Assembly: GCA_024235715.1 (NCBI GenBank)
Contig: JACKLW010000007.1
Location: 310,001-374,000 of the forward strand
DNA length: 64,000 nucleotides
Reading direction: 5' to 3'
Origin: Accumulibacter sp.
GTDB lineage: Bacteria; Pseudomonadota; Gammaproteobacteria; Burkholderiales; Rhodocyclaceae
Position numbers and translations under genes: made by a program. The first letter of the stretch is position 1. Each line of letters starts with the position of its first letter. Of this stretch, positions 9,412 to 42,536 are shown one piece after another. The notes below the pieces were generated by a model, which saw nothing but the letters and a program-made list of their open reading frames with translations, was not told the DNA's origin and did no database searches.

Positions 9412-12571
<3,160 letters not shown>

Positions 12572-12572
<1 letters not shown>

Positions 12573-12913
12573 TGCGTCCTGACGACACTGCTCATTCTCC
12601 CTCGAAAGCGTCTGCGCCCGTGGATGCTGCCGACCTGCCCGAGGTGATCGTCTGTCGCGGCTGTGGACGGATGCTGCCTGCCAGCTCGCTCTATTGCCCG
12701 CACTGTTGCGGTGCCGACGGCCGCCGTGGGGCGACCGCCGGCGGCGCCTTTCTCGGTGGCCTGTTCGGTGTGCTGGCTGGCGGTCTGATCGCCGCCGTCT
12801 GGTCTTCGGCAGTTGGCCCAGAGCAACTCAACTGGAGCCAGATGTTTGCGGCCGTCCTGCCCTGCATCGCGATCGGCGTGGTGGTCGGCATCATTCGCAG
12901 TCGAAAGGGTTGA
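12572..12913 (+). CDS. Small zinc-ribbon membrane protein, unknown function
   Basis: This 113-residue protein has a double-CxxC zinc ribbon near the N-terminus (CRGCGRMLPASSLYCPHCCG) followed by two hydrophobic segments with glycine-rich turns (about residues 52-72 and 86-106). The ATG overlaps the purB stop (TGATG) and follows an AGGAGA site at 12561-12566, so it is translationally coupled to purB. The fold suggests a rubredoxin-like zinc knuckle tethered to the membrane. I do not recognise a named family. Confidence 0.7.
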
Positions 12914-12915
12914 GC

Positions 12916-13236
12916 GTGCCACAGTTCTCCGAGAACCTGAAGAAGCTGCCGGGGGTGTCGCATGTCGCGGCAATCAGGCTGCTGGACGCCAGCGGCGAGG
13001 AGCTGGGGGTCATCGAGAACAAGCCCGGTAGCCAGGGCTCATTGGCGGTCTACAATCACCTCGCGCAGACCTACGGGGCGATTACGCCGGAGGCGGCCAG
13101 GAAAGGCCTGGAGATGTTTGCCGAGCACACCGAGGATGCGCGTGCGAACCCGGGCAAGCATGCCAATATCGATCGCCTTCTGCTGATTGTCGAGGAGCAG
13201 AAAACACTGCGCACGAAGCACGTATTTGCCGTCTGA
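12916..13236 (+). CDS. DUF2322 family protein
   Basis: A 106-residue protein matching my memory of the DUF2322 family from betaproteobacteria: LPGVSHVAAIRLLDASGEE, then ENKPGSQGSLAVYNHLA, then a helical end. It starts with GTG 2 bases after the preceding stop. The whole protein reads as soluble alpha/beta. Function is unknown. Its place after purB and the zinc-ribbon gene suggests one transcript. Confidence 0.75.
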   Translation: MPQFSENLKKLPGVSHVAAIRLLDASGEELGVIENKPGSQGSLAVYNHLAQTYGAITPEAARKGLEMFAEHTEDARANPGKHANIDRLLLIVEEQKTLRTKHVFAV

Positions 13237-23621: not shown

Positions 23622-24875
23622 TCAGCCAATACGGGCGGCAACGACGCCGACGTCGCGCAGCATGCTTTCCGCTGCCGGACCCGAACGGCGCGTCGTGCGC
23701 TCGCGTTCGAGTTGCTTGTTGACCACGTCCCAATCGAGATCGAGAAACGTCAGGCGCTCGAGTTCGCCGCGGATGGCCTTGGCAAACAGCGCGTGCAGTG
23801 ACTTCATGGTGATCGCCCGGCCGCCGAGTCCGGCGACGACGGTGTGTCCTTCGAGTTGCAGCCCGGACATGGCCATGCGTACATCGGTCGACACGACACC
23901 GCCGATGCCTACCGCCAGGCTCTTTTCGAGCACTACTACCCGTTTGGCGTTCTGCAGTGCGGCGCGGACGTTGTCGAGCGGGAAAGGCCGGTAGGAACTG
24001 ATGCCCAGAACGCCGATCTTCTCCCCAGCCTGACGCATCTCATCGACGACGTCCTTGATCGTTCCGAGGATCGAACCCATCGCGACGACGATGGTCTCCG
24101 CATCGTCCGTGAGGTAGGAATGCGTCAGACCGCCCGAATCGCGACCGAATATCGTCTTGAACTGTGCAGCCAGCTTCGGGATGAGTTCCAGGGCCTGCAT
24201 CTGCTTGGCGTGCGCGAGGTAGCGCACTTCGGAGAAGGCTTCCGGGCCAACCATTGCGCCGATCGATACTGGATCCGTGGGATCGAGTGCCTGGCGTGGT
24301 TCGTAGGGTGGCAGGAAAGCGTCGACCTGCTCCTGAGTCGGCACGTCGACGCGCTCGTAAGCGTGCGTGAGAATGAAGCCGTCCATGCAGACCATCACCG
24401 GCAGGCTCACTTCCTCGGCCAGCTTGAAAGCCAGGATGTGCAGGTCGAGAGCTTCCTGGTTGGTTTCGGCGAACAACTGGATCCAGCCGCTGTCCCGCTG
24501 CGAGAGCGCATCGGTGTGATCGTTCCAGATGTTGATCGGTGCGCCGATGGCACGGTTGGCGACGGTCATGACGATCGGCAGGCCGAGACCGGAAGCGTTA
24601 TAGACCGCCTCGCACATGAACAGAATGCCCTGCGAAGCGGTCGCTGTGTAGGTGCGGGCACCGGTTGCCGACGAGCCAATGGCGACGCTCATCGCTGCGA
24701 ACTCGGATTCGACGTTGATGAACTCGCAGTCGGTGACTTCCCCGGACTTGACCATCTCGCCGAGGCCTTCAACGATGTGTGTCTGCGGGGAAATCGGGTA
24801 GGCGCAAATGACCTCCGGCCGGCAAAGGCCGACCGCTTCGGCAACGGCGTGGGAACCTTCAGTCTGTTTAAGCAT
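23622..24875 (-). CDS. porA: Pyruvate:ferredoxin oxidoreductase, alpha subunit
   Basis: A 417-residue protein with the PFOR alpha N-terminal domain (GSHAVAEAVGLCRPEVICAYPISPQTHIVEGL), the ASQGILFMCEAVYNASGLGLPIVM segment, and a C-terminal transketolase-like domain II. Together with beta and gamma it forms the four-subunit-type enzyme. It overlaps porG by 8 bases, showing translational coupling. Length and domain order match archaeal/anaerobe-type split PFORs. Inferred to work in anaerobic acetate or glycogen metabolism. Confidence 0.9.
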   Translation of the reverse strand: MLKQTEGSHAVAEAVGLCRPEVICAYPISPQTHIVEGLGEMVKSGEVTDCEFINVESEFAAMSVAIGSSATGARTYTATASQGILFMCEAVYNASGLGLPIVMTVANRAIGAPINIWNDHTDALSQRDSGWIQLFAETNQEALDLHILAFKLAEEVSLPVMVCMDGFILTHAYERVDVPTQEQVDAFLPPYEPRQALDPTDPVSIGAMVGPEAFSEVRYLAHAKQMQALELIPKLAAQFKTIFGRDSGGLTHSYLTDDAETIVVAMGSILGTIKDVVDEMRQAGEKIGVLGISSYRPFPLDNVRAALQNAKRVVVLEKSLAVGIGGVVSTDVRMAMSGLQLEGHTVVAGLGGRAITMKSLHALFAKAIRGELERLTFLDLDWDVVNKQLERERTTRRSGPAAESMLRDVGVVAARIG

Positions 24876-25464
24876 GTGCGGCCTCCTGGTGACTTGCCCC
24901 GGCGATCTCGTCAGTGACGAACTGATAAGCCTCGGTGGCAGCAGCGATGTTGTTGCGGGCGATCTTCTCCGAGAACTTGGTATTGATGGCCTTGATCACC
25001 GACTCCAGGCGGATGATTCCCGAGGCGGCGGCGAAGCCGGCCAGCAAGGGGACATTGGGCATCGGCCGGCCGACGTGCTTGCGGCTGAGGTCGGTGGCCG
25101 GGACCGTGAGAAGCCGCTCTTCCGGCCAGTCGCGGACGAAATCGGCTAGGCCCAGATCGGTAAAGCTGCGGCTGGTGTTGATCAGGATGTAACCGCCCTT
25201 CTTCAGCCCGGAGAAGACGTCCACCTGGAAAAGCAGGGTCGGATCCTGAATGATCAGGGCATCGGGCTCCATGATTGGCTCGCGCAGCCGGATCTCCTGA
25301 TCGGCGATGCGGCAGAAGGCGACGACGGGAGCGCCGGTGCGCTCCGATCCAAAACTTGGGAAGGCCTGCGCGTGGCGTCCCTCTTCAAATGCAGCGATCG
25401 ATAACATTTCGGCAGCGGTAACCACGCCCTGGCCACCGCGACCATGTATTCGGACTTGGAACAT
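24868..25464 (-). CDS. porG: Pyruvate:ferredoxin oxidoreductase, gamma subunit
   Basis: The 198-residue protein opens with the gamma signature FQVRIHGRGGQGVVTAAEML, continues with AFPSFGSERTGAPVVAFCRI, and ends in an alpha/beta domain. It is first in the porG-porA-porB-oxidoreductase operon on the minus strand. A GGAGG site lies before the ATG at 25464. This subunit closes the CoA/TPP site in the complex. Confidence 0.92.
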   Translation of the reverse strand: MFQVRIHGRGGQGVVTAAEMLSIAAFEEGRHAQAFPSFGSERTGAPVVAFCRIADQEIRLREPIMEPDALIIQDPTLLFQVDVFSGLKKGGYILINTSRSFTDLGLADFVRDWPEERLLTVPATDLSRKHVGRPMPNVPLLAGFAAASGIIRLESVIKAINTKFSEKIARNNIAAATEAYQFVTDEIAGASHQEAAHA

Positions 25465-25754
25465 GTTTCCTCCATTGTTTTACATCGGTGTCTTTTTTGG
25501 GTCCGCGCAGCATAGCTCAGTTCGAGTTCATTGAAAACAACGACACGGCTGCCGATCACCGGCTTGCCGTGGTTTTTCGGCAACTCGCCGGAATCGGGGG
25601 CCTGCAGGCGAGTCGTGCTCGATTTCCCGCCTGCAGGACAGACCCGCCCACCTCTGGTATACGAGCCATGCTGAACAATTTTGTGCTGCTGCTTACTGCT
25701 GCTGCCGGTGTTGGTGGTACCGCCGCCAGCCTGGTTTGCTGCGCATGCCGCATT
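25465..25754. other. Intergenic region upstream of porG with a long inverted repeat
   Basis: About 290 bases between the porG start and the end of the mesaconyl-CoA hydratase gene, both on the minus strand. It holds a 10-bp inverted repeat CCTGCAGGCG/CGCCTGCAGG (25601-25610 with 25628-25637, 17-base gap). It may be an operator for the por operon or a weak terminator for the upstream operon. No FNR-type box was found here. Confidence 0.4.
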
Positions 25755-26834
25755 TCATGCCGGCAATGGGCCACTGCCCGGTCTCTTCGGCATCAGGACC
25801 GTATAGTCGAAGTCGAGAAGCACGCTTGGGTCGTAGCTGCCGTCGGCTGCCTTGTACGGGAAGTCGGCACAGTTGCGGTCCTTGGTGGCCACGGTACGCA
25901 GGCGGAGCGCGCCAAGGTCATGGCGACCGGGAAGGGACATCTGTTCGATGACCTCCGACCAGGCGTACACCGTATCGCCGGCGAATGCCGGCGATACATG
26001 CCTGCCTGCGTTGATCGCCGCGACGCTGAAGGCATTGGCCAGGCCGTTGAACGACAGCGAGCGCGCCAGGCCGATAATGTAGCCACCGTAGACGATCCTG
26101 CGCCCGAAACGTCCCTCCTTTTCCGCGTGCTGGTTGAAGTGCACCCGCGCCGTGTTCTGGTAGAGGCGGGTGGCCATCATGTGCTCGCTTTCCTCGATGG
26201 TCATCCCGTCGACGTGGTCGATGCGTTCACCGACCCGGTAGTCGTCCCATAGATCCGTGCTGCCCGAAAGCGTGGTGTCGTAGTCTTCCAGCCTGATCCC
26301 GGCCGGAATGACCAGGTCGCTCGCCGCCACGGCATCGTGAAGTTCGGGAATCACGGTGTCTGGCGCCGGTGACGCCGGATCGCGCTTGCGAACCATTACC
26401 CAGCGGCAGTAGTCGAGCGCTATCTGCCCACGCTGATTGACGCCACAGGAGCGCACATAGACGATGCCGGTCTTGCCGTCGCGATTTTCCTTGAGTCCGA
26501 TCACCGTCGAATCGGCGGTGAGCGTGTCTCCCGGATAGACACGGTGACCGAAGCGTCCGGTGGCGTAGCCGAGGTTGGCAATGGCATTGAGCGAGATATC
26601 CGGCACCGTCTTGCCGAAGACCACGTTGAAAGCCAGCAAATTGTCCACCGGCGAACGCGGGAAGGACAGGCTGTGCGCGAAGGTGTCTGCCGAGGTCAGG
26701 GCAAAGCGCGAGCCGGTCAGTGCCGTGTACAGGGCGACATCGCCTTCGGTAATCGTCCGCGGCGTCGCATGGGCGATCGTCTGGCCGACGCGAAAATCCT
26801 CGAAGAAATTGCCCCGCCTGGTCTTCTCGCTCAT
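25755..26834 (-). CDS. mch: Mesaconyl-C1-CoA hydratase (beta-methylmalyl-CoA dehydratase)
   Basis: A 359-residue double-hotdog MaoC-type enzyme. The first hotdog opens with FFEDFRVGQTIAHATPRTITEGDVALYTALTG, and the second repeats the pattern (LWDDYRVGERIDHVDGMTIEESEHMMATRLYQN). It hydrates mesaconyl-C1-CoA to beta-methylmalyl-CoA or the reverse. It is the last gene of a minus-strand operon behind mct and mcl, 33 bases after mcl. A paralogue is coded at 34705. The two-domain size (about 350) matches characterised Mch. Confidence 0.88.
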   Translation of the reverse strand: MSEKTRRGNFFEDFRVGQTIAHATPRTITEGDVALYTALTGSRFALTSADTFAHSLSFPRSPVDNLLAFNVVFGKTVPDISLNAIANLGYATGRFGHRVYPGDTLTADSTVIGLKENRDGKTGIVYVRSCGVNQRGQIALDYCRWVMVRKRDPASPAPDTVIPELHDAVAASDLVIPAGIRLEDYDTTLSGSTDLWDDYRVGERIDHVDGMTIEESEHMMATRLYQNTARVHFNQHAEKEGRFGRRIVYGGYIIGLARSLSFNGLANAFSVAAINAGRHVSPAFAGDTVYAWSEVIEQMSLPGRHDLGALRLRTVATKDRNCADFPYKAADGSYDPSVLLDFDYTVLMPKRPGSGPLPA

Positions 26835-26867
26835 CGTCTTCTCTCCCCCTCGTCCCGCATGGTCGCT

Positions 26868-27911
26868 TTACAGTCCATAGGCAGCCGCCAGGTCCGGATC
26901 GCGTCTGGCAACAAGGCTTGCCAGATCGACGATCACCCGCGCCTGTTTCCAGGTGGCGTCGTCCTGCATCTTGCCGTCGATCGTCGCCACGCCACTGCCG
27001 TCGGGCATGGCTTCCAGAATGCGCTTGGCGAACAGGACTTCCTTGACATCGGGACTGAAGACGCGTTTGGCTATGGCGATCTGGTTGGGCGCCAGCGACC
27101 AGGCGCCGGAGCAACCCATCAGGAAGGCATTGCGAAACTGCGCCTCGCAGGCCGCCTCGTCCTTGAGGTCACCGAACGGCCCGTAGAACGAGTGCAGACC
27201 GTGTGCCACGGCTGCATCGACCATGCGGGCGACGGTGTAGTGCCACAGATCCTGCTGAAAGAAGGCACGCTGGTCCTTGCCCACCTCGGGGTCTGCAAGA
27301 ACGCCGTAGCCGGGGTGACCGCCTCCGACGCGAGTGGTCTTCATGCCGCGCGACGCCGCCAGGTCTGCAGGGCCGAGGCTCAGACCGTGCATCCGTGGAC
27401 TGGCGCCGCAGATCGCCTCGACATTGGTCACCCCTTGCGCGGTTTCAAGCAGCGCGTGCAGCAGGATCGGCTTGCGGATTGCGTATTTCGCTTCGAGCAG
27501 GGCGACGTACTGATCGACGAAGTGGATATCCCAGGGCCCCTCGACCTTGGGGATCATGATCACGTCGAGCTTGTTGCCGACATGCTTGATGATCTCGCTG
27601 AGGTCGTCGAGTACCCACGGGCTGTTCAGCGCATTGATGCGCACCCACATGCCGGTATCGGCGAAATCGTTGTTTGCCAGCACTTCGATGAAGCCGGCAC
27701 GCGCCGCCTCCTTGGCGTCGATCGGAATGGCGTCCTCGAGGTTGCCGCACATTACATCGCACTTGCTGGCAGTCTCGGGCGCCTTGGCGCGGATCTTTTC
27801 GATGTGTGGCGGAAAGAAGTGGATCATGCGCTCCGGTCGCACGGGCAGTTCACGCAGGGGTTGTGGGGCACCAATGGCGAGCGGCTTGTAGAAATGGACT
27901 GGTAGCTTCAT
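26868..27911 (-). CDS. mcl: L-malyl-CoA/beta-methylmalyl-CoA lyase
   Basis: A 347-residue TIM-barrel enzyme of the citrate lyase beta family. The family start VHFYKP ... [37 protein letters not shown] with its LEDA metal/CoA motif, [19 protein letters not shown] and [10 protein letters not shown] are present. It cleaves beta-methylmalyl-CoA to glyoxylate plus propionyl-CoA and L-malyl-CoA to glyoxylate plus acetyl-CoA, or condenses them. It is the middle gene of mct-mcl-mch. AGGAAG precedes the ATG. Shared by the ethylmalonyl-CoA pathway and the 3-hydroxypropionate bicycle. Confidence 0.92.
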
Positions 27912-27991
27912 GGCATTCTTCCTGGGGAAAGAGACGGTCTGGCAGGCAAGGGCGGCGAAGGACTCATCGGTACGGTAATGCGGTCATGCGG

Positions 27992-29212
27992 TCATCCTGG
28001 CCCGGCGACCACGCCGGCGTCGTGCAGCCGGCCGACTTCCGCTTCACTCATGCCGAGGACCTCGAGCAGTATCTGGTCGGTGTGTTGGCCAAGCAGCGGC
28101 GCCGGCATCGCCGGCAGGCGGGGCGACCCGGAAAAGTCGAGTGGCGTGGTGGGCATCAGGTAGGCTCCGACGCCGGCTTGCTCGGTCATGTGGAACAGGG
28201 GATTGTCGACCGAGCAATCGGGATCGTTGGCAATCGCCTCGCGAACGCTGCGATAGGGGCTCCAGCTGACGCGGTGCGCATCGAGGACGGCTGCCGCCTC
28301 GGCCAGCGTGCGTGCCTGGCACCACGGTTCGATCAGCGCGGCGATCTGCTGGCGCGCACGGAAGCGATTGCCCTCGTCGTCCAGGTCGAGTCCGAGACGG
28401 ACGCCCAGCGCCTCGATCGACTCTTTCAGTCCGGTCGCCTTGATCAGGTCGCGCCACTGCCTGCGGGTCAGTCCGACGATCATCAGCCGCTTGCCGTCGA
28501 GTGTTTCGAAGTCGCGGCCGAAAGCGCCGTACAGGTAGTTTCCCTGTCTGGGCCGGTCGGCATCGTTGACCATCACCTCGGCGATCATTCCGACGTTGCC
28601 GATCATCGCCAGCGCCACGTCCTTGAGTGCCAGGCGTACCAACTGCCCTTCTCCGGTCAGGCGGCGGTGCCTTTCGGCGGCGAGCATGCCGATGGCGATC
28701 ATGTGGCCGCTGATGAAGTCCCACGCCGGAAAGACGTGGTTGACCACCTCGGGGGAAGCGTTCGGCCCGGTCATGAAGGGCAGGCCAACCTGCGGGTTTA
28801 CGGTGTAATCGACGTCCGAGCTGCCGTCGCGGCGACCGGTGAGATTGACCATGATCAGGTCCTGCCGATTGGCTTGCAGTGCCTCGTAGCTCAGCCAGCC
28901 GGTGGCCGGGAAGTTGGTGCTGAAGAGACCGGCGTTCTCGCCCGGCGCACAGATCAGCTCGGTCAGCAACGCCTGTCCACGGGGATTGCGCAGGTTGACT
29001 GCGATCGAACGCTTCCCCTTGTTCATGCCGGCCCAGAAAAGGCTGTGCTGGCCGCCGCGGGCCAATGGCCAGCGACCGTAGTCGAGGCCGCCGCCGATGG
29101 GGTCGAAACGGATGACGTCGGCGCCCAGTTGAGCGAGCGTCATGCCACCCAGTGGTGCGGCGACGAACGCCGAGCCTTCGACCACCCGCAGGCCCTTGAG
29201 GATACCGTCCAT
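27992..29212 (-). CDS. mct: Mesaconyl-CoA C1-C4 CoA transferase (family III CoA transferase)
   Basis: This 406-residue protein belongs to the family III (CaiB/Frc) CoA transferases: GLRVVEGSAFVAAPLGGMTLAQLGADVIR, KGKRSIAVNL, and PAWDFISGH, where D165 is the likely catalytic Asp. In the 3-hydroxypropionate bicycle, Mct moves CoA within mesaconyl-CoA from C1 to C4. The identification rests on its company: mcl, mch downstream and a mesaconyl-C4-CoA hydratase gene divergent. Without that context only a generic CoA transferase could be named. It leads the minus-strand operon, 80 bases before mcl. Confidence 0.82.
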   Translation of the reverse strand: MDGILKGLRVVEGSAFVAAPLGGMTLAQLGADVIRFDPIGGGLDYGRWPLARGGQHSLFWAGMNKGKRSIAVNLRNPRGQALLTELICAPGENAGLFSTNFPATGWLSYEALQANRQDLIMVNLTGRRDGSSDVDYTVNPQVGLPFMTGPNASPEVVNHVFPAWDFISGHMIAIGMLAAERHRRLTGEGQLVRLALKDVALAMIGNVGMIAEVMVNDADRPRQGNYLYGAFGRDFETLDGKRLMIVGLTRRQWRDLIKATGLKESIEALGVRLGLDLDDEGNRFRARQQIAALIEPWCQARTLAEAAAVLDAHRVSWSPYRSVREAIANDPDCSVDNPLFHMTEQAGVGAYLMPTTPLDFSGSPRLPAMPAPLLGQHTDQILLEVLGMSEAEVGRLHDAGVVAGPG

Positions 29213-31217: not shown

Positions 31218-31301
31218 CCTCATTAACTGCGAGGAATAGTACGGTAAGACAAATGCATGATATTTATGGATTTGCAGTGTGCTCAATTTTGGAGGGACGA
31301 A

Positions 31302-32741
31302 ATGAAACTTACGCTCAGCCATGATGAAATAGGTGCCTATTCTGGCGAGTTGCACGCTTGCAACGAGGCTTTCAAATCGCACTACCCGGCGGATTCCTTC
31401 GACCGGCAGCCGGTGCATACGGTCTACGGGGGCGCCAATCTGTTCAAGGCCGGCTTTGCCGGCAAGTTGGGTGAGGTTGCGCTCAAGACCCTCGATACCT
31501 ATGCCCCCAGTTACAGCGTCTTCGCCCGCGCACTTGGCTTGCCGCGCGCCGACACCTTGCCGACGAATCCGATGGAGCTGGCCAGCCTCACCCGTGCGCT
31601 GGAAACGAATCCCGACCTCGTCCGAGAGACCAAGCAGGCCGCCTGGCTGGCTTATACGGTCTACAACCGGGTCGTGAAGAAGTTGCAGAGCGAGCCGATT
31701 GAAGACAACCGCATCGACTTCGAAGATGGCTACGGCAATCGCCCGGACGATGAAGAAGATGGTCATGCCGTCTCGGCTGCCGACGAAGTCGCCAAAGGGA
31801 TGGGCGATGGCGTGCTCTCGCCGTTTATCGGCATCCGGGTGAAGACCTTCTCGGAAGAGTGCAAGCTGCGCTCGATTCGCACCCTGGACATCTTCCTGAC
31901 GCGGCTGGCCGAGAAGACCGGCGGCAAACTGCCGCAGAACTTCATCGTCACGCTTCCGAAGGTCACTACGCCGGGTCAGGTGTCGACCTTCGTAAAGATT
32001 CTCGAGAATCTCGAGTCTCGACTTGGTTTTCCCAAGGACTCGCTGAGAATGGAGATCATGATCGAAACGACGCAGTCGATCATCAATCACAAGGGGGAAA
32101 ACACGGTTCCGCTGCTCGTCGCTGCCGCCGGTGGCCGCTGCCGCTCGGCGATCTTCGGGACCTACGACTACACGGCCTCGTGCAACATTACTGCCGCACA
32201 CCAGACGCACACCCATCCGGCCTGCGATTTCGCGCGCCACGTGATGCAGGTCAGTCTGGCCGGAACCGGAATAACGATCAGCGACGGTGCGACCACCAGC
32301 ATGCCGATCGGGCCGCACAAGGCGGCCAGGGACGCTGTTCTGTCGGCGCAGCAGATGGACGAGAATCGCGCCGTCGTGCACGGTGCCTGGAAGCTGCACT
32401 ACGACAATATCATGCACTCCCTGCGGCACGGCTACTATCAGGGCTGGGATTTGAATCCGGGCCAGTTGCCGGTGCGCTATGCGGCGATGGACACCTTCTT
32501 CCTCAGCAGTCTGCAGGATGCCTCGGCGCGGCTGAACGCTTTTCTCAACAAGGCCGCTCAGGCGACGCTGGTCGGCAATACCTTCGACGACGCAGCGACA
32601 GGTCAGGGCTTGCTGAACTTCTTCTTGCGGGGAATGGCGTGCGGCGCGATCACCGAGCAGGAAGTTCTCGCGACGGGAATCACTCTGGACGAGTTGCGCT
32701 CGCGTTCGTTTGTCCAGATTGTCAGCAATCGGACCAGCTAG
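31302..32741 (+). CDS. DUF6986-like HpcH/HpaI (citrate lyase beta) superfamily protein, function unknown
   Basis: A 479-residue protein with the TIM-barrel signatures of the CoA-ester lyase/HpaI aldolase superfamily: RIDFEDGYGNRPDDEED (residues 138-152), IVTLPKVT (215-222), EIMIETTQS with E255, and GTYDYTAS with D289, probable metal ligands. Motifs QPVHTVYGG near residue 36 and YYQGWDLNPGQLPVRYAA match my memory of DUF6986, a family sometimes mislabelled phosphoenolpyruvate kinase. It is much longer than Mcl (347). GGAGGG lies 5 bases before the ATG. As the first gene of the ethylmalonyl-CoA operon it probably acts on a CoA ester or related oxoacid of that pathway, but this is inference. Confidence 0.72.
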   Translation: MKLTLSHDEIGAYSGELHACNEAFKSHYPADSFDRQPVHTVYGGANLFKAGFAGKLGEVALKTLDTYAPSYSVFARALGLPRADTLPTNPMELASLTRALETNPDLVRETKQAAWLAYTVYNRVVKKLQSEPIEDNRIDFEDGYGNRPDDEEDGHAVSAADEVAKGMGDGVLSPFIGIRVKTFSEECKLRSIRTLDIFLTRLAEKTGGKLPQNFIVTLPKVTTPGQVSTFVKILENLESRLGFPKDSLRMEIMIETTQSIINHKGENTVPLLVAAAGGRCRSAIFGTYDYTASCNITAAHQTHTHPACDFARHVMQVSLAGTGITISDGATTSMPIGPHKAARDAVLSAQQMDENRAVVHGAWKLHYDNIMHSLRHGYYQGWDLNPGQLPVRYAAMDTFFLSSLQDASARLNAFLNKAAQATLVGNTFDDAATGQGLLNFFLRGMACGAITEQEVLATGITLDELRSRSFVQIVSNRTS

Positions 32742-32785: not shown

Positions 32786-34462
32786 ATGACAGAGGTCAAC
32801 AGCGGAATGCAGGTGGCGGTACGGTATCTCCAATCAGCCGATGCACTGATCGGGAAGTCGCTGGGCTGGATGAAGCAGCAGTGTGCCGGCGACAAGGGAG
32901 TCTCCAGCGAGAAGCTCGACGCCCATCAGATGGCCAGTTTCGATCTGGCATGGTGTGCCGCTGAAGCGACCGCTGCACGTTTTGCGGCTGACTATGCCGG
33001 CAAGGTTGCCGCGGCCGGTGCGACAGGCGATGGCCCATGTCTGGAAGAGCGGATGGCGCTGGTGTTTTGCGCCGAGGCCTTGCAGAACATTCACAACCGT
33101 TTCTGGGCGCGCCCGCAGTGTTTCGGCGTGAATGCCGGCGAACTGGCCGCCTTCGCCTCTTCCGAAATGGCTGTTTTCTGCCAGACGCAACTCGATGCGC
33201 GCAATCTGGAAGCGCTTGGCAGGCAGGTGGCGGCACTGGAGGGCGACAGCGGTGCCTACATGCTCGGCGATGACGCGATGATGATGCAGGACGCGTTCCG
33301 CAAGCTGGCGACCAACGTGGTGATGCCTCTGGCCGAGGAGATTCATCGCGAGGACCGGATCATTCCGCAGGAAATCCTCGAGCCGCTGACGGAAATGGGC
33401 TGCTTCGGCCTGTCGATTCCGGAACGTTTCGGCGGTATCCAGAGCGACGATCATGAAGACAACATGGGGATGATCGTGGTCACCGAGGAACTGTCGCGCG
33501 GCTCCCTCGGTGCGGCAGGCAGCCTGATCACCCGTCCTGAAATCCTCAGCCGCGCCCTGCTCAAGGGCGGAACGGAAGCGCAGAGACAGAAGTGGTTGCC
33601 GCAGGTGGCGATGGGCGATCCATTGTGCGCCATCGCGGTCACCGAACCGGATACCGGCTCGGACGTCGCGGCCATGCGCCTCAAGGCGACCAGGTGCGAT
33701 GGCGGCTGGATTCTGGACGGCGTCAAGACCTGGTGCACCATGGCCGGCAAGGCTGGCGTGCTGCTGGTCCTGGCCCGATCCAACCCGGACCGCTCGCTCG
33801 GTCACAAGGGCTTGAGCATGTTCCTGGTGGAAAAGGACTCGTATGACGGGCACGATTTCGAGTATCGTCAGGCGCAGGGTGGCGTGCTGACCGGCCGGGC
33901 GATTTCGACCATTGGTTACCGCGGGATGCATTCCTATGAACTGTTCTTCGACAACATCTTTGTCCCTGACGAGAATCTGGTCGGCGGTCCGGAAGGCGAA
34001 GGGAAGGGCTTCTACTTCACCATGGCCGGCTTTGCGGGCGGACGAATTCAAACTGCCGCACGTGCCATCGGCGTCATGCAGGCGGCTTTCGAACGTGCCG
34101 TTTCCTATGCCGGCGAGCGCAAGGCATTCGGCAAACCGATTGGCGACTATCAACTGACGCTGGTCAAGTTGGCGCGCATGGCAACTCTGCTGACCGTCTC
34201 CCGGCAATTCACCTACGCCGTCGGGCGTCTCATGGACCAGGGTTCAGGGCAGATGGAAGCGAGCATGGTGAAGCTCTTCACCTGTCGGACCGCCGAGTGG
34301 CTGACCCGCGAAGCGCTGCAGATCCATGGGGGTATGGGCTATGCCGAGGAGTCGCCCGTCAGCCGCTATTTCCTGGATGCCCGTGTGCTGTCGATTTTCG
34401 AAGGGGCCGAAGAAACGCTGGCCCTGAAGGTGATCGCGCGCGCGCTCATCGACGCGGCGTAG
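32786..34462 (+). CDS. mcd: (2S)-Methylsuccinyl-CoA dehydrogenase
   Basis: The 558-residue flavoprotein combines an extra N-terminal helical region (about residues 1-150) with a complete acyl-CoA dehydrogenase fold: CAIAVTEPDTGSDVAAMRLKAT, FDNIFVPDENLVGG, RIQTAARAIGVMQAAFERAVSYAGERKAFGKPI, and QIHGGMGYAEESPVSRYFLDARVLSIFEGAEE. The long N-terminus separates Mcd from ordinary acyl-CoA dehydrogenases of about 380-400 residues. It oxidises methylsuccinyl-CoA to mesaconyl-C1-CoA, passing electrons to ETF. It starts 44 bases after the lyase-fold gene with an AAGAAAGGGA site. Confidence 0.93.
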   Translation: MTEVNSGMQVAVRYLQSADALIGKSLGWMKQQCAGDKGVSSEKLDAHQMASFDLAWCAAEATAARFAADYAGKVAAAGATGDGPCLEERMALVFCAEALQNIHNRFWARPQCFGVNAGELAAFASSEMAVFCQTQLDARNLEALGRQVAALEGDSGAYMLGDDAMMMQDAFRKLATNVVMPLAEEIHREDRIIPQEILEPLTEMGCFGLSIPERFGGIQSDDHEDNMGMIVVTEELSRGSLGAAGSLITRPEILSRALLKGGTEAQRQKWLPQVAMGDPLCAIAVTEPDTGSDVAAMRLKATRCDGGWILDGVKTWCTMAGKAGVLLVLARSNPDRSLGHKGLSMFLVEKDSYDGHDFEYRQAQGGVLTGRAISTIGYRGMHSYELFFDNIFVPDENLVGGPEGEGKGFYFTMAGFAGGRIQTAARAIGVMQAAFERAVSYAGERKAFGKPIGDYQLTLVKLARMATLLTVSRQFTYAVGRLMDQGSGQMEASMVKLFTCRTAEWLTREALQIHGGMGYAEESPVSRYFLDARVLSIFEGAEETLALKVIARALIDAA

Positions 34463-34530: not shown

Positions 34531-34704
34531 CTTCCTTCACTTGCGGTGCGCATTCCGGCATGCGCGCCGCTGTTGTTTGAGTGGCGGTGAGCAGGCCTCC
34601 TGGAGTCCTCGCCTCATTCCCCGATCCTTGTCTCCCGCTCGGGGTGAAACAGAAGGGAGATTCGTGAGTCGCGAATGCGACTTGCACGGCAAAAGGAAGA
34701 TTCC

Positions 34705-35886
34705 ATGTCGCAAGCGATTCGTTTCCGACCGCAGGTCGAGCTGGCTGAAACAGTGAAGGTGGACCTGCAGAAGGTCCGCTACCCTCACTATGGACGCTAT
34801 CTGGAGGAGTTCGTGCCGGGGCAGGTGTTTGTGCACCCGCGTGGCTTCACCTTCTTCCCCGCCCAGATGGAGGCCTTTGCCCGCACCTACATGCAGTGCA
34901 ATCCGCTGTACATCAATCAGGAGTACGCGCGGGCCAGCGGTTTTGCCGGCCTGCTGGCTTCGCCGCAGATGGTCTTCAACGTCGTTCTCTCGCTCGGCGT
35001 GCAGAACGACTCGGAAAAGGCAATGGCGAACCTCGGCTATTACGATGCGCAGTACTTGCGGCCGGTTTATCAGCTGGACACGATTCGCGCCCTGACCAGG
35101 GTCATGGACCGCAAGGAGCGTGGCGCCGGCAAGCCCGGTATCGTGACCATCCGGACATTGGGCATCAACCAGAATGACGAGGTGGTTCTGCAGTACCAGC
35201 GCAAGATCATGGTCGCCGGGCAGGGTGACCGTCCGCCAACCACGCCCCTGCCGCCCTCCGCGGCGATGCCGGCCTTCCCCTGGGTCGAGGATGCCGCGGT
35301 CTCCCTGCCCGAGTTTCCGGCTGCGCTTCCTTCCGGCCTGACCGGGCCAACTTCCTACTTCGAGGATTTTTCCGTCGGCGAGATCATCGTTCACGCCAAT
35401 GGCAGAACGATCACCGATGAACATCAGCCGCTGACCTACGCGGTGGGAAATACGCATCCGCTGCACTTCGATCGCGTCTTCAGTTCCGGCCTGTCGGGCA
35501 AGATGAGCGGAGATCCCATTGTTTATGGGGGGCTGGTTTTCGCCTGGCTGGAAGGCCTGGCCAGTCGCGACGTCAGCGAGAACAGCGTATGGGAGCTCGG
35601 TTTCACGGAGGGCTATCATACTCAGCCCTCGGTCGGCGGCGACACCGTTGCCGCCCTGTCGCGCGTCCTGGCCGCCGAAGATGCCCCCGGCGAGTTGGGC
35701 GCCAGCTTCGGCATCGTGACTTTTCAGCTGGTCGGCGTCAAGAACGTCAGTGCCGCCACCGCTTTTGCCGAATACGGCGAGGATTTGTTCATCAAGGAAA
35801 ACGACAAGAAGGCGATGAACAAGGAAAAGATCGAGGCGAAGATTTTTGAGATCGAGAGACGTCTCTTGATCAGGAAGAGGAGCTAG
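34705..35886 (+). CDS. Second MaoC-type (mesaconyl-CoA hydratase-like) enzyme of the ethylmalonyl-CoA operon
   Basis: A 393-residue double-hotdog protein: N-terminal half with YHYGRYLEEF-like opening (YPHYGRYLEEFVPGQVFVHPRG) and C-terminal half SYFEDFSVGEIIVHANGRTITDEHQPLTYAVGNTHPLHFD, then a Lys/Glu-rich tail of about 30 residues. It is longer than, and clearly diverged from, Mch at 25755. Being in the operon with mcd and ecm, it is the natural candidate for hydration of mesaconyl-C1-CoA in the ethylmalonyl-CoA pathway. ATG 34705 follows AAGGAAG. Another enoyl-CoA substrate is possible. Confidence 0.8.
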   Translation: MSQAIRFRPQVELAETVKVDLQKVRYPHYGRYLEEFVPGQVFVHPRGFTFFPAQMEAFARTYMQCNPLYINQEYARASGFAGLLASPQMVFNVVLSLGVQNDSEKAMANLGYYDAQYLRPVYQLDTIRALTRVMDRKERGAGKPGIVTIRTLGINQNDEVVLQYQRKIMVAGQGDRPPTTPLPPSAAMPAFPWVEDAAVSLPEFPAALPSGLTGPTSYFEDFSVGEIIVHANGRTITDEHQPLTYAVGNTHPLHFDRVFSSGLSGKMSGDPIVYGGLVFAWLEGLASRDVSENSVWELGFTEGYHTQPSVGGDTVAALSRVLAAEDAPGELGASFGIVTFQLVGVKNVSAATAFAEYGEDLFIKENDKKAMNKEKIEAKIFEIERRLLIRKRS

Positions 35887-35888
35887 TC

Positions 35889-37907
35889 ATGGATTCCGTG
35901 CAAACGAAACGGGACCGTCCCTGGTTGATGCGGACCTACAGTGGTCACAGCTCGGCCCGGGCGTCCAACGCGCTCTATCGAACCAATCTTGCCAAAGGCC
36001 AGACCGGGTTGTCGGTGGCCTTCGATCTGCCGACGCAGACCGGCTACGATGCAGACAGCCCCCTGGCCAGGGGCGAGGTCGGCAAGGTTGGCGTGCCGAT
36101 ATCGCATATCGAGGACATGGATCAGTTGTTTGACCAGATACCCCTCGACCAGATGAACACGGCGATGACCATCAACGCCACGGCGCCATGGCTGCTGTCC
36201 CTGTATATCGGCCTGGCACAGCGCAGAGGCATCGACCCGAAGAAGCTGAGCGGCACGACCCAGAACGACATCATCAAGGAATACCTGTCGCGGGGTACCT
36301 ACATCTATCCGCCGGGTCCGTCGATGCGCCTGATCGCGGACACCATCAACTACACCGTCAAGCACGTGCCGAAGTGGAATCCGACCAACATCTGCAGTTA
36401 CCACTTGCAGGAGGCAGGGGCTACGCCGGTCCAGGAACTGGCCTATGCCCTGTGCACCGCGACGGCCGTTCTGGACCGCGTCCAGGCGTCTGGCGAGATC
36501 AGGCCGGAAGAGTTTTCACAGGTCGTCGAGCGCATCTCCTTCTTTGTCAACGCGGGCATCCGTTTCGTCGAGGAGTGTTGCAAGCTGCGGGCATTCGGCG
36601 AGATGTGGGACGAGCTGACGCTGACCCGCTACAAGGTGGCCGATCCGAAGCTGCGCCGTTTTCGCTATGGCGTGCAGGTGAACTCGCTGGGGCTCACCGA
36701 ACCGCAGCCGGAAAACAATGTGCAGAGAATCGTCCTGGAAATGCTGGCGGTGGCGCTGTCCAAGGGCGCTAGGGCGCGTGCCATCCAGCTTCCCGCGTGG
36801 AACGAGGCAATGGGTTTGCCGCGGCCCTGGGACCAGCAATGGGCGTTGCGCATGCAGCAGGTCTTGGCCTTCGAGACCGATCTGCTGGAGTACGAAGACA
36901 TTCTCGACGGCTCGCCGGTGATTGCGGCGAAGGTCAGGCAGCTCGTCGAGGGTGCCAGAAGAGAGATCGAGAACGTCGAAGCGCAGGGCGGGATCATTGC
37001 CGCGATCGAATCCGGTTACGTCAAGCGCGAGCTGGTGGCCAGCCACATGCAGCGCTTGCGCGCGATCGAGTCGGGCGAACTGAAGATCATCGGGGTCAAC
37101 TGCTTCCAGGAAACCGCGGAGTCCCCGCTGACCCTGGGTAGCGATGGCGGTATCATGAAGACCGATCCGGCCGCCGAACGTGAGCAGATCGAAAGGCTGC
37201 AGGCGCATCGAAAGAAGCGCAGCGAGGCCGACGTTCAGGCCGCCCTGCAGGGGCTGAGCGATGCCGCCAGAAGCGGCGACAACATCATGCCAAGTTCGAT
37301 TCGCTGCGCCCTGGCCGGCGTCAGCACCGGCGAGTGGGGTGATTCGCTGCGCGCTGTGTTTGGTGAGTTCCGCCCGCCGACGGGGATCGATATCGCCATC
37401 GACAGCCGCGCCGTACTTGGCAAGAAGGATCAGGTCACCGATCTCAGGGCGAGAGTCGCCAGCACCGGTGCGGCACTGGGCCGTCCCCTCAAGCTGCTGG
37501 TCGGCAAACCCGGGCTGGACGGACATTCCAACGGCGCGGAGCAGATTGCCGTCAAGGCGCGTGACGTCGGCTTCGAGGTGGTCTACGACGGGATCCGCCT
37601 GACGCCGCAACAGATTGCCCAGGCTGCCGAAGAGGAAGGCGTGCATATGGTCGGCCTGTCGATACTTTCGGGAAGCCACATGGAGCTGGTGGAATCGGTG
37701 CTGCAGGAGCTGCGTTCGCGCGATCTGGCGAGCGTGCCGGTGATCGCCGGCGGGATTATCCCGCAAGAGGACGCAACGAAGCTGGCCGCGCTCGGCGTCA
37801 GCGCAGTCTACACGCCCAAGGATTTCAATCTCAATACGATCATGGCCGACATGGTGGACGTGATCCGCCACGCCAACGGGCTCGAACGGCTTGGTCAGCT
37901 GCCCTGA
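35889..37907 (+). CDS. ecm: Ethylmalonyl-CoA mutase (B12-dependent)
   Basis: A 672-residue protein with the methylmalonyl-CoA mutase-like catalytic barrel (RTYSGHSSARASNALYRTNLAKGQTGLSVAFDLPTQTGYDAD) and a C-terminal cobalamin domain with DGHSNG (about residue 544), the LSILSGSHMELV segment and AGGIIP. Single-chain size about 670 residues, close spacing to meaB and ccr, and lack of a second subunit gene point to ethylmalonyl-CoA mutase (MeaA) rather than methylmalonyl-CoA mutase. It makes methylsuccinyl-CoA from (2R)-ethylmalonyl-CoA. It starts 2 bases after the MaoC gene. Confidence 0.92.
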   Translation: MDSVQTKRDRPWLMRTYSGHSSARASNALYRTNLAKGQTGLSVAFDLPTQTGYDADSPLARGEVGKVGVPISHIEDMDQLFDQIPLDQMNTAMTINATAPWLLSLYIGLAQRRGIDPKKLSGTTQNDIIKEYLSRGTYIYPPGPSMRLIADTINYTVKHVPKWNPTNICSYHLQEAGATPVQELAYALCTATAVLDRVQASGEIRPEEFSQVVERISFFVNAGIRFVEECCKLRAFGEMWDELTLTRYKVADPKLRRFRYGVQVNSLGLTEPQPENNVQRIVLEMLAVALSKGARARAIQLPAWNEAMGLPRPWDQQWALRMQQVLAFETDLLEYEDILDGSPVIAAKVRQLVEGARREIENVEAQGGIIAAIESGYVKRELVASHMQRLRAIESGELKIIGVNCFQETAESPLTLGSDGGIMKTDPAAEREQIERLQAHRKKRSEADVQAALQGLSDAARSGDNIMPSSIRCALAGVSTGEWGDSLRAVFGEFRPPTGIDIAIDSRAVLGKKDQVTDLRARVASTGAALGRPLKLLVGKPGLDGHSNGAEQIAVKARDVGFEVVYDGIRLTPQQIAQAAEEEGVHMVGLSILSGSHMELVESVLQELRSRDLASVPVIAGGIIPQEDATKLAALGVSAVYTPKDFNLNTIMADMVDVIRHANGLERLGQLP

Positions 37908-37913
37908 CGAAAC

Positions 37914-38942
37914 ATGGCCCAGGCAAACCTTCCCGAACCCGAGCAGCTGGCCTTGCGGATACTGCGCGGGGAGCGCGCGGCGGTTGCCGGTGGTCTGAAT
38001 CTCCTGGACAACAAGCTTCCGGAAGCGCGCAACCGCTCGGCGCGTCTGCTGGCCGCGCTCTCCGGCGAGCGTGCGCTGAATGACGGCCACCTCGTCGGGG
38101 TGACGGGTCCCCCCGGCGCCGGGAAGTCGTCTCTCGTTTCGGCGATGATACGCGAGTGGCGGCTCGCGGGCAGGACCGTCGGAGTGCTGGCGGTGGATCC
38201 GTCCAGCCGGCCGGAATTGGGCGGAGGCGCCTTGCTGGGCGATCGCATTCGCATCAAGAATTCCTCTCACGACGACGGTTTGTTCATTCGCTCGCTGGCC
38301 AATCGCAACCAGTTGGGGGGCGTCGCGACCGAGGTCTGGCCAATGAGCTGGCTGATGCTGGCCTGCTTCGACATCGTGGTCATCGAGACCGTCGGCGTCG
38401 GGCAGACCGAAATCGATATCGCGGAGATCGGTGATACCGTCTGTTATGTGGCGCAGCCGGCGTCGGGCGACACGATCCAGTATCTCAAGTCGGGAATCAT
38501 CGAAATACCGGATATCTTCGTGGTCAACAAGTCGGATATTGGCGCTGCGGCGCGCAAAACGGCCAGTGAACTTGGCCGCAGCGCGCCCCGGCCCGACCGC
38601 CGGGACGACTGGGATTATCCCGTGTGTCTGGTGAGCGCGACGATGAATACGGGGATCAGGCAGCTTAACGAGCATTTCGACAGGCACCGCAAATATCTTG
38701 TCGGCGCCGACTTGCTGGGCACGCTGCGTGCTCGCCATCAAAGCGGCTGGGTAGTACGCCTGTTGAAAGAGGAGTTCGGAACGTTCGGCCTGGAACTGAT
38801 CGGCGGCTGCGCGGCTGTCGGCGAAAGGCTTGGGGAAAACCAGCACCGTCAGTTTGAAGAATACGAGCGTATGCGCAAGCATATTCTTTCCAGATTCATG
38901 TCGGCAAGCCAGCCGAGTAGTCTAACCAAAGGAGCATCCTGA
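37914..38942 (+). CDS. meaB: MeaB/ArgK-type G protein chaperone for the B12 mutase
   Basis: A 342-residue GTPase of the G3E/SIMIBI class with Walker A GPPGAGKS (residues 65-72), the [19 protein letters not shown] switch region, ETVGVGQTE (Walker B region), and NKSD for guanine specificity. MeaB-type proteins guard and load cobalamin in mutases such as Ecm, the gene directly upstream (6-base gap). Its stop overlaps the ccr start (TGATG). Length is normal. Confidence 0.93.
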
Positions 38943-40696
38943 TGAGCAAACAACTGTATGAACTAGGCGATAGGCCCCCCCTGGGCGAAGTTCCGGAACA
39001 GATGCATGCCTGGCTGATCCGCCAGGACCGTTTTGGCAAGCCCACCGAGGCGTTTCAGAAGGAAGTGGTGAATACCCCGGCGATCGCCGACGATGAGGTC
39101 CTGGTACTCGTGATGGCGGCGGGGATCAACTACAACAACGTGTGGGCGGCACTCGGCTTCCCGGTCAACGTCATCGGCGCCCGCAACAAGGCCGGCGAGC
39201 CCGAAGACTTCCATATCGGCGGCAGCGACGCCTCCGGCATCGTCTACGCGGTCGGCAAGGACGTGACCAACGTCAAGGTCGGGGACGAAGTGGTGATGCA
39301 TTGCGGCCAATGGGATCGCAACTGCAGCTGGGTCAAGAAGGGTGGCGACCCGATGTACTCGCCCTCGTTCAAGATCTGGGGATACGAAACCAATTACGGC
39401 AGTTTTGCCCAATTCACCAAGGTGCAGGGTCACCAGTGCATGCCCAAGCCCAGGCACATGACCTGGGAAGAGTCGGCGGCGTATACGCTGGTCGCCGCGA
39501 CGGCCTGGCGGATGCTGCACGGCTGGGAAAGCAGTTCGATCAAGAAGGGCGATGTGGCCCTGATCTGGGGTGGCGCAGGCGGCCTGGGTTCGATGGCCAT
39601 CCAGATCGCCAAGGCGGTCGGCGCGACATCGGTGGCCATCGTGTCGGGCGAGGACAAGTTCGACTACTGCATGAAGCTGGGTGCGAAAGGCTGCATCAAC
39701 CGTAACGACTTCGATCACTGGGGCATGTTGCCGCACTGGAAGGACAACGCCGGCTACGCCAAGTGGCTGAAAGGCGTGCGCTCCTTTGGCGCGAAGATCT
39801 GGGAAGTGCTGGGCGAGAAGCGCGCGCCGAACATCGTCTTCGAGCATCCTGGCGAAACGACCATCCCGACTTCGATTTTCGTGTGTGAAACCGGTGGCAT
39901 GGTCGTCGTCTGCGCCGGCACCTCGGGCTACAATGCGACCGTCGACCTGCGCTACCTGTGGATGCGGCAGAAGCGCCTGCAAGGCTCGCATTTTGCCAAT
40001 GCCGTGCAGTGCAACCAGATGAACGAGCTGGCGCTTGCTGGCCTGATCGATCCCTGCATGTCGCGAGCGTTTACCTATGACGATCTGCCCCTGGCACATC
40101 AGTTGATGCACGACAACAAACACCCGCACGGCAACATGTCGGCGCTGATTGGCGCTACCGAATTCGGCCTGGGTGCCAGTGGCAAGCCGGCCGTGGCGAT
40201 TGTGCATCCGACGCTGCCCAAGGACGATGTTCACACGACGCCGGCACCCTATCCGATGTCCACGCCGCTGCCGGGCATTGCCGAGGGCGAACCCGTTACC
40301 ATTGCCGACGATGGCAGCAAGGTTCGCGATCTGATGCATCGTGGCATCATTTCCTGTGCGCCGGGCGATTCCGTCGGTGCTGTCGCCAAGATCATGGTCG
40401 ACAACGAGATTCATGCCGTGGTCGTCATGGATGCGCAGGGCGGAGCCGTTGGCGTCGTGTCGCAGACCGACATGGTTCTGGCGCGGCAGGGCCGGACGCC
40501 GGATCAGGCGCGCGCGATGCAGGCCGGGGAGATCATGACCCCGGGTTGCGCGACCTGCGATGCGGAGATGCTGTTGAGCGACGCGGTCAGCCTGATGACG
40601 GGGCGTCGTATGCACCGTCTGGTGGTGACCGAGCAGGGTCAGCCGGTGGGCGTCATTTCCATGACCGACGTGGTCCGCAAGATCATCGGCGAGTGA
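38942..40696 (+). CDS. ccr: Crotonyl-CoA carboxylase/reductase with fused C-terminal CBS pair
   Basis: The 584-residue protein begins with a typical Ccr of about 430 residues in the medium-chain dehydrogenase family: [76 protein letters not shown] (NADPH fold, 205-228) and [15 protein letters not shown]. It reductively carboxylates crotonyl-CoA to ethylmalonyl-CoA. After a proline-rich linker (about 430-455), residues 459-584 form two CBS motifs, each ending in a ligand-binding pattern (GVVSQTDMV near 504, GVISMTDVV near 570). CBS pairs usually bind adenine nucleotides, so energy-state control of this step is likely but unproven. The fusion is unusual. Last gene of the operon. Confidence 0.93.
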
Positions 40697-40834: not shown

Positions 40835-41812
40835 ATGCGAGCCATCGTCTGCCGTGAACTCACTGGTCCCGCCGCGTTGCGGATCGAGGAGCTTGCCGAA
40901 CCTCTCTCCGGTCCCGGGCAGGTGCGCATTCGGGTCCGTGCCTGCGGGGTCAACTTTGCCGACAGCCTGATTACCCGCGGCCAATATCAAAAACAGCCAG
41001 CAACCCCTTTCGTTCCGGGTTTTGAAGTTGCCGGAGAGGTGCTCGAGGTGGGCGCCGGCGTGACCGGGTTCGCGCCCGGCGATCGGGTGCTGGCCCTGAC
41101 GCCCCACGGTGGCTACGCCGAGCAGGTTGCCGCCGACATCACGCGTTGTGTGCCGATACCGCCGACCATGTCCTGGGAACACGCCGCGGGATTTCCGGTG
41201 GTGTTTGGCACGTCGCATGTCGCCTTGTGGCATCGCGCACGCTTGCAGGCAGGCGAGACGCTGGTCGTGCACGGTGCCTCCGGTGGCGTCGGGCTGACCG
41301 CCGTTGCCATTGGCAAGCGTCTGGGGGCCACGGTCATCGCCACGGCCAGCGGCCCGGCAAAGCTCGCGGTGGCCCGCGAACACGGCGCCGACCACCTCAT
41401 CGATTCCAGCCGGGAGGATGTTCGCGAGCGGATCAGGGACCTGACCGCCGGTCGTGGTGCCGACGTGGTCTACGATCCCGTTGGCGGTGCGTTATTTACG
41501 GCTTCGCTGCGCAGCATCGCTTTCGAAGGGCGAATCCTGGTCATCGGTTTTGCCGGCGGCGACGTGCCGCAGATCCCTGCCAATCACCTGCTGGTCAAGA
41601 ATGTCGACGTGATCGGCGTTAACTGGCCGGCTTACGCCGAATTGCTCCCCCGAGTAATGATCGAGAGTTTCGCGACGCTTGTTCAATGGTATCTCGACGG
41701 CGCCATCCAGGTGCACGTTTCGGCGACCTATCCGCTGGCAAGGGCGGTCGAGGCGCTCGATCAGGTCGTGAGCAGAAAATCCACGGGCAAGGTGGTTATT
41801 ACTACCGAGTGA
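40835..41812 (+). CDS. Zinc-independent quinone oxidoreductase-like (MDR family) NADPH enzyme
   Basis: A 325-residue medium-chain dehydrogenase/reductase without the zinc-binding cysteines: MRAIVCRELTGPAALRIEELAEP, VNFADSLITRGQYQ, PGFEVAGEVLEVG, and nucleotide-binding VVHGASGGVGLTAVAIGKRLGA. The family includes NADPH:quinone reductases and enoyl-CoA or acryloyl-CoA reductases. It lies after the ccr terminator on the same strand. The exact substrate is unknown; an enoyl-CoA role would fit the neighbourhood but is only a suggestion. Confidence 0.82.
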   Translation: MRAIVCRELTGPAALRIEELAEPLSGPGQVRIRVRACGVNFADSLITRGQYQKQPATPFVPGFEVAGEVLEVGAGVTGFAPGDRVLALTPHGGYAEQVAADITRCVPIPPTMSWEHAAGFPVVFGTSHVALWHRARLQAGETLVVHGASGGVGLTAVAIGKRLGATVIATASGPAKLAVAREHGADHLIDSSREDVRERIRDLTAGRGADVVYDPVGGALFTASLRSIAFEGRILVIGFAGGDVPQIPANHLLVKNVDVIGVNWPAYAELLPRVMIESFATLVQWYLDGAIQVHVSATYPLARAVEALDQVVSRKSTGKVVITTE

Positions 41813-42086: not shown

Positions 42087-42536
42087 ATGAATCCCCAGAA
42101 CGGTTACGATATTGAAGACTTGTCAGTCGGCATGAGCGCAGAAATTGCCAAGACGATTACCGATGCGGACCTCGTCATGTTTGCCGGCGTGTCCACGGAC
42201 GTCAATGCGGTTCATATGGACGAGGATTTTGCAAAGACGACGATGTTTGGCGGCCGCATCGCGCACGGCATGTTGTCGGCCAGCCTGATCTCGGCGGTGC
42301 TCGGCAACCGTTTGCCCGGGCCGGGCTGCATTTACATGAGCCAGGCCTTGCGTTTTCGTGCGCCGGTGCGTCCCGGCGACACGGTCCATGCCAGGGTTAC
42401 CGTCAAGGAAGTTTTCGCCGACAAGGGGCGGGTAGCGCTCGATACCGTATGCACGGTGGGAGACAAGGTGGTCATTGACGGAGAAGCGATGCTGATGCCA
42501 ACCTCGCGCAGCAAGCGCGAAGCGGCCGGCAAGTAG
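42087..42536 (+). CDS. phaJ: (R)-specific enoyl-CoA hydratase (PhaJ-type MaoC)
   Basis: A 149-residue single-hotdog protein with the R-hydratase motif: AGVSTDVNAVHMDEDFAKTTMFGGRIAHGML contains the catalytic Asp and His. It converts trans-2-enoyl-CoA to (R)-3-hydroxyacyl-CoA, a PHA monomer, and could supply or drain crotonyl-CoA at the Ccr branch. AAAGG precedes the ATG. It stands alone between the oxidoreductase gene and a convergent reductase gene. No PHA synthase gene is within the window. Confidence 0.87.
   Translation: MNPQNGYDIEDLSVGMSAEIAKTITDADLVMFAGVSTDVNAVHMDEDFAKTTMFGGRIAHGMLSASLISAVLGNRLPGPGCIYMSQALRFRAPVRPGDTVHARVTVKEVFADKGRVALDTVCTVGDKVVIDGEAMLMPTSRSKREAAGK

Follow-up and report, generated by a model that had tools for sequence, protein, structure and literature searches.

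Crotonyl-CoA carboxylase/reductase (Ccr) spends NADPH to commit crotonyl-CoA to ethylmalonyl-CoA, and crotonyl-CoA exchanges with 3-hydroxybutyryl-CoA, the precursor of PHB. Enoyl-CoA carboxylases/reductases are also used in synthetic CO2-fixing pathways. They have been termed the fastest CO2-fixing enzymes (PMC12632816), and the Ccr of K. setae is reported to form a dimer of dimers with N81, F170, E171 and H365 at its CO2 site (PMC10966969). The usual form of the enzyme ends at the dehydrogenase fold. For the protein described here, the best PDB matches are AntE (4y0k/4y1b, 545 bits), which we take to serve antimycin biosynthesis, and 9kva (527 bits); both matches cover the Ccr part, the chains are 410–426 residues long, and the match stops before any CBS pair. 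The bare Ccr 4gi2, presumably from Methylobacterium extorquens, shares with our protein the catalytic domain, the pathway and the N/Y/E/H residues of the CO2 site, but lacks a CBS pair. Among metabolic enzymes, IMP dehydrogenase (a weak match of the CBS part) also has a CBS pair, although this is inserted in a TIM barrel and not attached behind a medium-chain reductase as a C-terminal tail. AcuB (9s52 and others) contains a comparable Bateman module and has been reported as an energy sensor in acetate/acetyl-CoA metabolism, where its AMP-bound form inhibits AcuC (PMC13121692). The likeness to our protein lies in the CBS pair (16%–20% identity), whereas AcuB is a separate regulator with an ACT domain that acts on a deacetylase, and our CBS pair is fused to the enzyme. 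In the open-licence literature and under these exact terms, no paper joins crotonyl-CoA carboxylase with a CBS domain, crotonyl-CoA and cystathionine beta-synthase domain share no paper, and neither crotonyl-CoA carboxylase nor CBS domain is named together with Accumulibacter, although some other allosteric Ccr may already have been published.

The window analyzed here, a 64,000-nucleotide stretch of an Accumulibacter sp. contig, encodes a Ccr fused to a CBS pair. The gene (ccr-CBS; 38942..40696, plus strand) starts with ATG and forms a single open frame of 584 amino acids with no internal stops. It overlaps the stop of the preceding meaB-like gene by one base, and a ribosome-binding-site-like AAAGGAG (38928..38934, plus strand) ends 7 nt upstream of its start. 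Residues 1–412 (38942..40177) make up the catalytic part, of which residues 17–412 match TIGR01751 with 556.7 bits, above the curated cut-off of 378.55. The 172 residues beyond comprise a proline-rich linker (about residues 413–457, 40178..40312), a first CBS repeat with outer limits set by hand (residues ~458–517, 40313..40492; motif GVVSQTD at 40451–40471, residues 504–510) and a second (residues 528–582, 40523..40687; motif GVISMTD at 40649–40669, residues 570–576), all on the plus strand. The Pfam CBS model scores 86.3 bits in total (cut-off 24) over two stretches, of which 528–582 scores higher. The original prediction, made from the letters of the DNA, had described a Ccr running through a linker into two CBS motifs, and both the coordinates and the signature motifs hold up against TIGR01751 and Pfam CBS. 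The fusion is not an artefact of a single assembly, since residues 1–584 lie in one open frame in this genome and in 22 of 27 other genomes of the genus, and since 55 of 64 loci recovered in a scan of a genome collection are fused. The architecture is real, conserved and rare, and makes the protein a variant of an enzyme already known.

The catalytic part looks intact because all four CO2-site residues have counterparts: N65, Y148, E149 and H350 align with N81, F170, E171 and H365 of the K. setae enzyme, three of the four being identical (positions counted on the alignment; chain index and the numbering of PMC10966969 differ by a constant 2). The position of F170 is occupied by tyrosine here, as in 4gi2. 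N65, Y148 and H350 are invariant in 46 aligned rows and E149 is nearly so. The protein would thus be expected, from its residues, to catalyze NADPH-dependent reductive carboxylation of crotonyl-CoA.

To place the fusion among Ccr proteins, we compared genomes at several taxonomic levels. No match at E ≤1e-80 occurred in the 33 other genomes of the family and order. The five genomes of the genus that lack the fused Ccr were also without an Mcd match at E ≤1e-150, and one genome (G027) had a Ccr and no Mcd match at that threshold. Even sampling of the class gave matches at E ≤1e-80 in 4 of 369 genomes (the source genome, two further fused forms and one bare form), and in an even sample of the Pseudomonadota, Ccr occurred in 61 of 398 genomes at E ≤1e-50 but was fused in 2 of the 61 (the source genome and G698; three candidates scored per genome in both samples). 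For the other 59, no match at E ≤1e-50 extended into the CBS part, and the 28 of their loci that were read to the stop all ended at 412–418 residues. Across all 37 bare proteins read, the ends fell at 412–422 residues in the numbering of the window protein, which supports the earlier statement that Ccr normally stops after the dehydrogenase fold. With 2 of 61 Ccr-bearing genomes fused, the idea that most Ccr homologues have a CBS pair, which would have counted against the original prediction, is rejected for the phylum sample.

A peptide-pattern scan of 84,980 species genomes returned the 64 loci mentioned above, 55 fused (four of them, L075, L079, L090 and L092, partial or frame-broken) and 9 bare; such a scan finds near relatives best, so distant fused forms may have been missed. 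The top named matches were Candidatus Accumulibacter genomes (≤92% identity). Labels of fused loci included Accumulibacter, Propionivibrio, Competibacter, Contendobacter, Defluviicoccus, SAR324, Rhizobiales, Rhodospirillales and some vaguer names, and a fused form labeled as a Deltaproteobacteria MAG belongs to the Myxococcota by taxonomy. Some labels may be binning errors, for example, that of a Synechococcaceae MAG (L075) with 85% protein identity. The fused form is common to Accumulibacter and unrelated glycogen-accumulating lineages, and was found in phosphate-, glycogen- or PHA-storing bacteria of wastewater.

Genes surrounding ccr-CBS include those of the ethylmalonyl-CoA pathway. They form a run on the plus strand in the order DUF6986, mcd, mch, ecm, meaB and ccr-CBS, then qor and a MaoC-like hydratase gene. 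The genes for (2S)-methylsuccinyl-CoA dehydrogenase (mcd, 32786..34462; 624 bits to the solved structure PDB 8ciw) and a mesaconyl-CoA hydratase-like protein (mch, 34675..35886) precede that of a coenzyme-B12 acyl-CoA mutase (ecm, 35889..37907), which scored 523 bits against a methylmalonyl-CoA mutase equivalog cut-off of 876 and is, by context, probably an ethylmalonyl-CoA mutase. A meaB-like GTPase gene (37914..38942) lies directly before ccr-CBS. Of the ethylmalonyl-CoA gene set, mcd, mch, ecm and ccr all lie together, the distinction of Ecm from Mcm being made by context. On the other side, ccr-CBS adjoins a quinone oxidoreductase-like reductase gene (qor, 40835..41812), as it does in Accumulibacter loci and many Competibacteraceae loci, and the MaoC-like protein (42087..42536) is possibly an (R)-enoyl-CoA hydratase. 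The DUF6986 protein encoded upstream of mcd (31257..32741, 589 bits, weakly HpcH-HpaI-like) may be a pathway lyase; its gene also lies upstream of mcd in two SAR324 loci and in one bare-Ccr locus (L082). Elsewhere in the same genome (4.1 Mb, 90.5% complete), the best epimerase match scored 45 bits to TIGR03081 (cut-off 115), and a match to isocitrate lyase was above its cut-off. For these bacteria, the pathway has been assigned in published work to balancing redox under anaerobic conditions, to supplying propionyl-CoA or to assimilating acetyl-CoA (PMC12604563, PMC8956781, PMC9041414). Its genes have been reported to be raised under low phosphate, above all in type I Accumulibacter (PMC12604563).

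Conservation and predicted structure both bear on what the CBS pair does. In both motifs, G, S, T and D show no variation across the 24 aligned CBS pairs, and are all kept in the Myxococcota fused protein, which is 57% identical to the window protein overall. Over 38 rows, the Ccr part had a mean column conservation of 0.88, compared with 0.79 in the CBS pair and 0.72 in the linker. Median pairwise dN/dS of the CBS pair was 0.12 among 12 Accumulibacter-group proteins and 0.13 among 14 Competibacteraceae-group proteins, about twice that of the Ccr part (0.06–0.07) and compared with 0.16–0.17 for the linker (same 26 of the 38 rows), ratios that are rough because dS is high (0.69–0.97 for the longer parts). 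The CBS pair is under purifying selection. Modeled alone, it reaches a pLDDT of 88.7, and Foldseek matches the model to Bateman proteins with a probability of 1.00, including Atu1752 and CBSX2 with AMP. AcuB with AMP, ADP, ATP or Ap4A and CBSX2 with AMP align at TM 0.75–0.81 by query length, and the top matches by E-value are CBS proteins with unstated ligand. In a monomer model of the whole protein (pLDDT 78.3), linker residues 419–438 and 445–454 and Ccr residues 305–340 fall below 50, and because this holds for most of the linker, the model gives no fixed contact between Ccr and CBS pair.

We consider it fairly probable that the protein is an active NADPH-dependent Ccr whose CBS pair binds an adenine nucleotide that raises or lowers its activity; catalytic activity, ligand and allostery are all features that we infer. 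A Bateman module with two intact motifs on a flexible linker would most simply be an allosteric adenylate sensor, and direct control by energy charge is plausible given the intact motifs, the purifying selection and predicted-fold matches that include AMP-, ADP- and ATP-bound AcuB. As for direction, we lean very slightly toward inhibition by AMP or ADP with relief by ATP over the reverse. Ccr would draw C4-CoA away from PHB into the ethylmalonyl-CoA pathway, using NADPH and CO2, and the CBS sensor would set this branch by adenylate state across the feast/famine, anaerobic/aerobic cycle. The claim of energy-charge control, as originally put forward for this gene, is a good hypothesis. If true, it would offer a handle on the split of C4-CoA between PHB and propionyl-CoA or pyruvate in phosphate- and glycogen-accumulating bacteria, and a natural nucleotide-switchable Ccr would be useful for synthetic CO2-fixing pathways.

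Other functions of the CBS pair are conceivable. CBS pairs are able to bind other ligands, and the motif residues do not fix which. The pair could sense the ratio of NAD(P)H to NADP, a CoA ester, c-di-AMP or another nucleotide, and tune the enzyme to redox or pathway state. Atu1752 (3fhm), for which we assume that the ligand includes NADH, is among its best matches in both structure and sequence. In these bacteria, the pathway is proposed to balance redox under anaerobic conditions (PMC12604563, section 4.2.3), and the same paper discusses it as a redox outlet. We regard a non-energy ligand as rather unlikely, however, as the motifs are of the ordinary type, the fold matches include adenylate-bound CBS pairs and nothing indicates a specific other ligand. 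CBS pairs also commonly dimerize, and a module that mainly dimerizes or docks Ccr to pathway partners, with no regulatory ligand, would suit both the linker predicted to be flexible and the operon neighbors, which are conserved in Accumulibacter, Competibacteraceae and SAR324 loci. This seems improbable, since in both repeats the residues of the ligand site rank with the most conserved positions, a constraint that docking by itself would not impose. That the CBS tail is neutral and does nothing is very improbable, being contradicted by the purifying selection and by the retention of the tail, with both motifs intact, in distant lineages.

Beyond ccr-CBS and its operon, the window points to a second set of genes. 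About 10 kb from ccr-CBS, on the minus strand, are genes for 2-methylfumaryl-CoA isomerase (mct, 27992..29212; 801 bits to TIGR04253, cut-off 725), a malyl-CoA/citramalyl-CoA lyase-like aldolase (mcl, 26868..27911) and a second mesaconyl-CoA hydratase-like protein (meh candidate, 25755..26834). The best PDB matches of the aldolase are 6kin and 4l7z (663 bits to the latter, presumably a Chloroflexus enzyme), and it scores below the NCBIfam lyase cut-offs. POR subunits are encoded with these three genes within 23622–29212 (minus strand). By its predicted gene content, this segment, close to the ethylmalonyl-CoA operon, represents part of a 3-hydroxypropionate bi-cycle. Accumulibacter and Competibacter are known to have such a partial bi-cycle (PMC6593406), with mct, mcl-like and meh-like genes in common with the window, but the passages of that paper on it treat it as a route for assimilation of organic substrates, with no tie to a fused Ccr.

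Outside the genus of the window, an Mct homologue (E ≤1e-60) goes with the fused Ccr, which is a new association. It was present in 26 of 32 fused genomes compared with 8 of 69 bare-only genomes (Fisher P = 9e-12, a test that ignores kinship; duplicates G812 and G817 left out), although matches at this threshold may include other CoA transferases. Counting only Mct above the curated cut-off, the figures were 6/32 and 0/69 (P = 7e-4, kinship again ignored). The six fused genomes with no match at E ≤1e-60 were G803, G806, G814, G819, G823 and G824. Inside the genus, where all 23 fused genomes have Mct, the link is uninformative because 4 of the 5 genomes without Ccr have it too. The most distant fused form seen is that of the Myxococcota locus (L080), in which ccr-CBS, a citE/RipC-like lyase gene, a weakly MaoC-like hydratase gene and mct follow one another in this order on one strand. 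In a Rhizobiales locus (L068), LysR, a hydratase-like gene and mct lie upstream of ccr-CBS on the opposite strand. The L080 lyase and the Mct proteins of both loci scored below curated cut-offs, and the hydratase-like proteins of the two loci have no similarity to each other (E = 1.0). Together, the three neighborhoods suggest a shared putative route from mesaconyl-CoA to pyruvate and acetyl-CoA, though other uses of the genes are possible. The upper half of the ethylmalonyl-CoA pathway would lead via Mct, mesaconyl-C4-CoA hydratase and citramalyl-CoA lyase to pyruvate, for a net conversion of acetyl-CoA, CO2 and 2 NADPH to pyruvate; the Mcd step would release two electrons, and ferredoxin would not be involved. 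We put forward only tentatively, and with more doubt than belief, that the CBS-Ccr is the regulated entry to this hybrid route and that a switchable Ccr has spread horizontally among feast/famine storage bacteria. For a specialist, the association with Mct and the mobility of the gene are likely the most surprising results.

Phylogenetic analysis of the Ccr part was based on 113 proteins (94 distinct) after 7 partial rows were dropped. In the large tree, 57 fused rows fell on one side of a branch (support 70/83; the program warns of long branches), and a 27-row tree with one extra bare sequence also recovered a fused branch (80/73). These placements allow a single fusion event. One gain followed by later loss is also possible, since bare rows fall among fused rows in a 32-row tree. 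As for the source of the CBS pair, a stand-alone CBS gene beside a bare Ccr was considered as precursor, but among open frames of up to 560 aa in the loci, HMMs listed no separate CBS gene near bare Ccr, and tblastn at eight loci returned chance-level matches only (best E 0.13). Nor was a close donor found in 200 Pseudomonadota genomes, where the best match outside the source genome scored 79 bits and 10 of 11 non-own matches sat in open frames of 148–275 aa.

The ccr-CBS gene appears to have moved between unrelated bacteria. A tree of ecm (quick method) joined Accumulibacter to SAR324 (support 99), apart from Competibacteraceae, and the same grouping imposed on the Ccr part was rejected (AU P = 4e-5; the group was chosen with the trees already in view). 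The same picture comes from protein identities: compared with a Competibacter locus (L054), the window proteins are 71% (Ecm), 49% (MeaB) and 83% (Ccr-CBS) identical, and compared with a SAR324 locus (L078), 76%, 57% and 64%. Judging from these comparisons, ccr-CBS has evidently moved separately from the operon. Between A. iunctus (L055) and its sister in the ecm tree, A. conexus (L043), DNA identity is 91%–96% up to ccr, 79%–86% over ccr and qor, and 83%–89% (a partial recovery) beyond. This looks like a local gene replacement in one of the two. In A. iunctus, the far more divergent ccr-CBS and qor lie at 10001–13000 of the locus. The segment groups with Contendobacter in the large tree (98/83), and in a smaller tree has no clear placement or groups weakly with Accumulibacter.

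Some genomes carry more than one Ccr, either one fused and one bare (G802 and G804) or two fused copies (G808 and G815). Second fused copies were seen in some Competibacteraceae-related genomes (L049, 9815–17746; L063, 9941–11767; L067, 9926–11749), where L063 occurs beside L058 and L067 beside L066, and neither L063 nor L067 has any of the searched operon neighbors nearby. In a Propionivibrio MAG (L079, 5379–11745), each of mcd, ecm and ccr-CBS is broken into at least two frames, possibly through sequencing errors.
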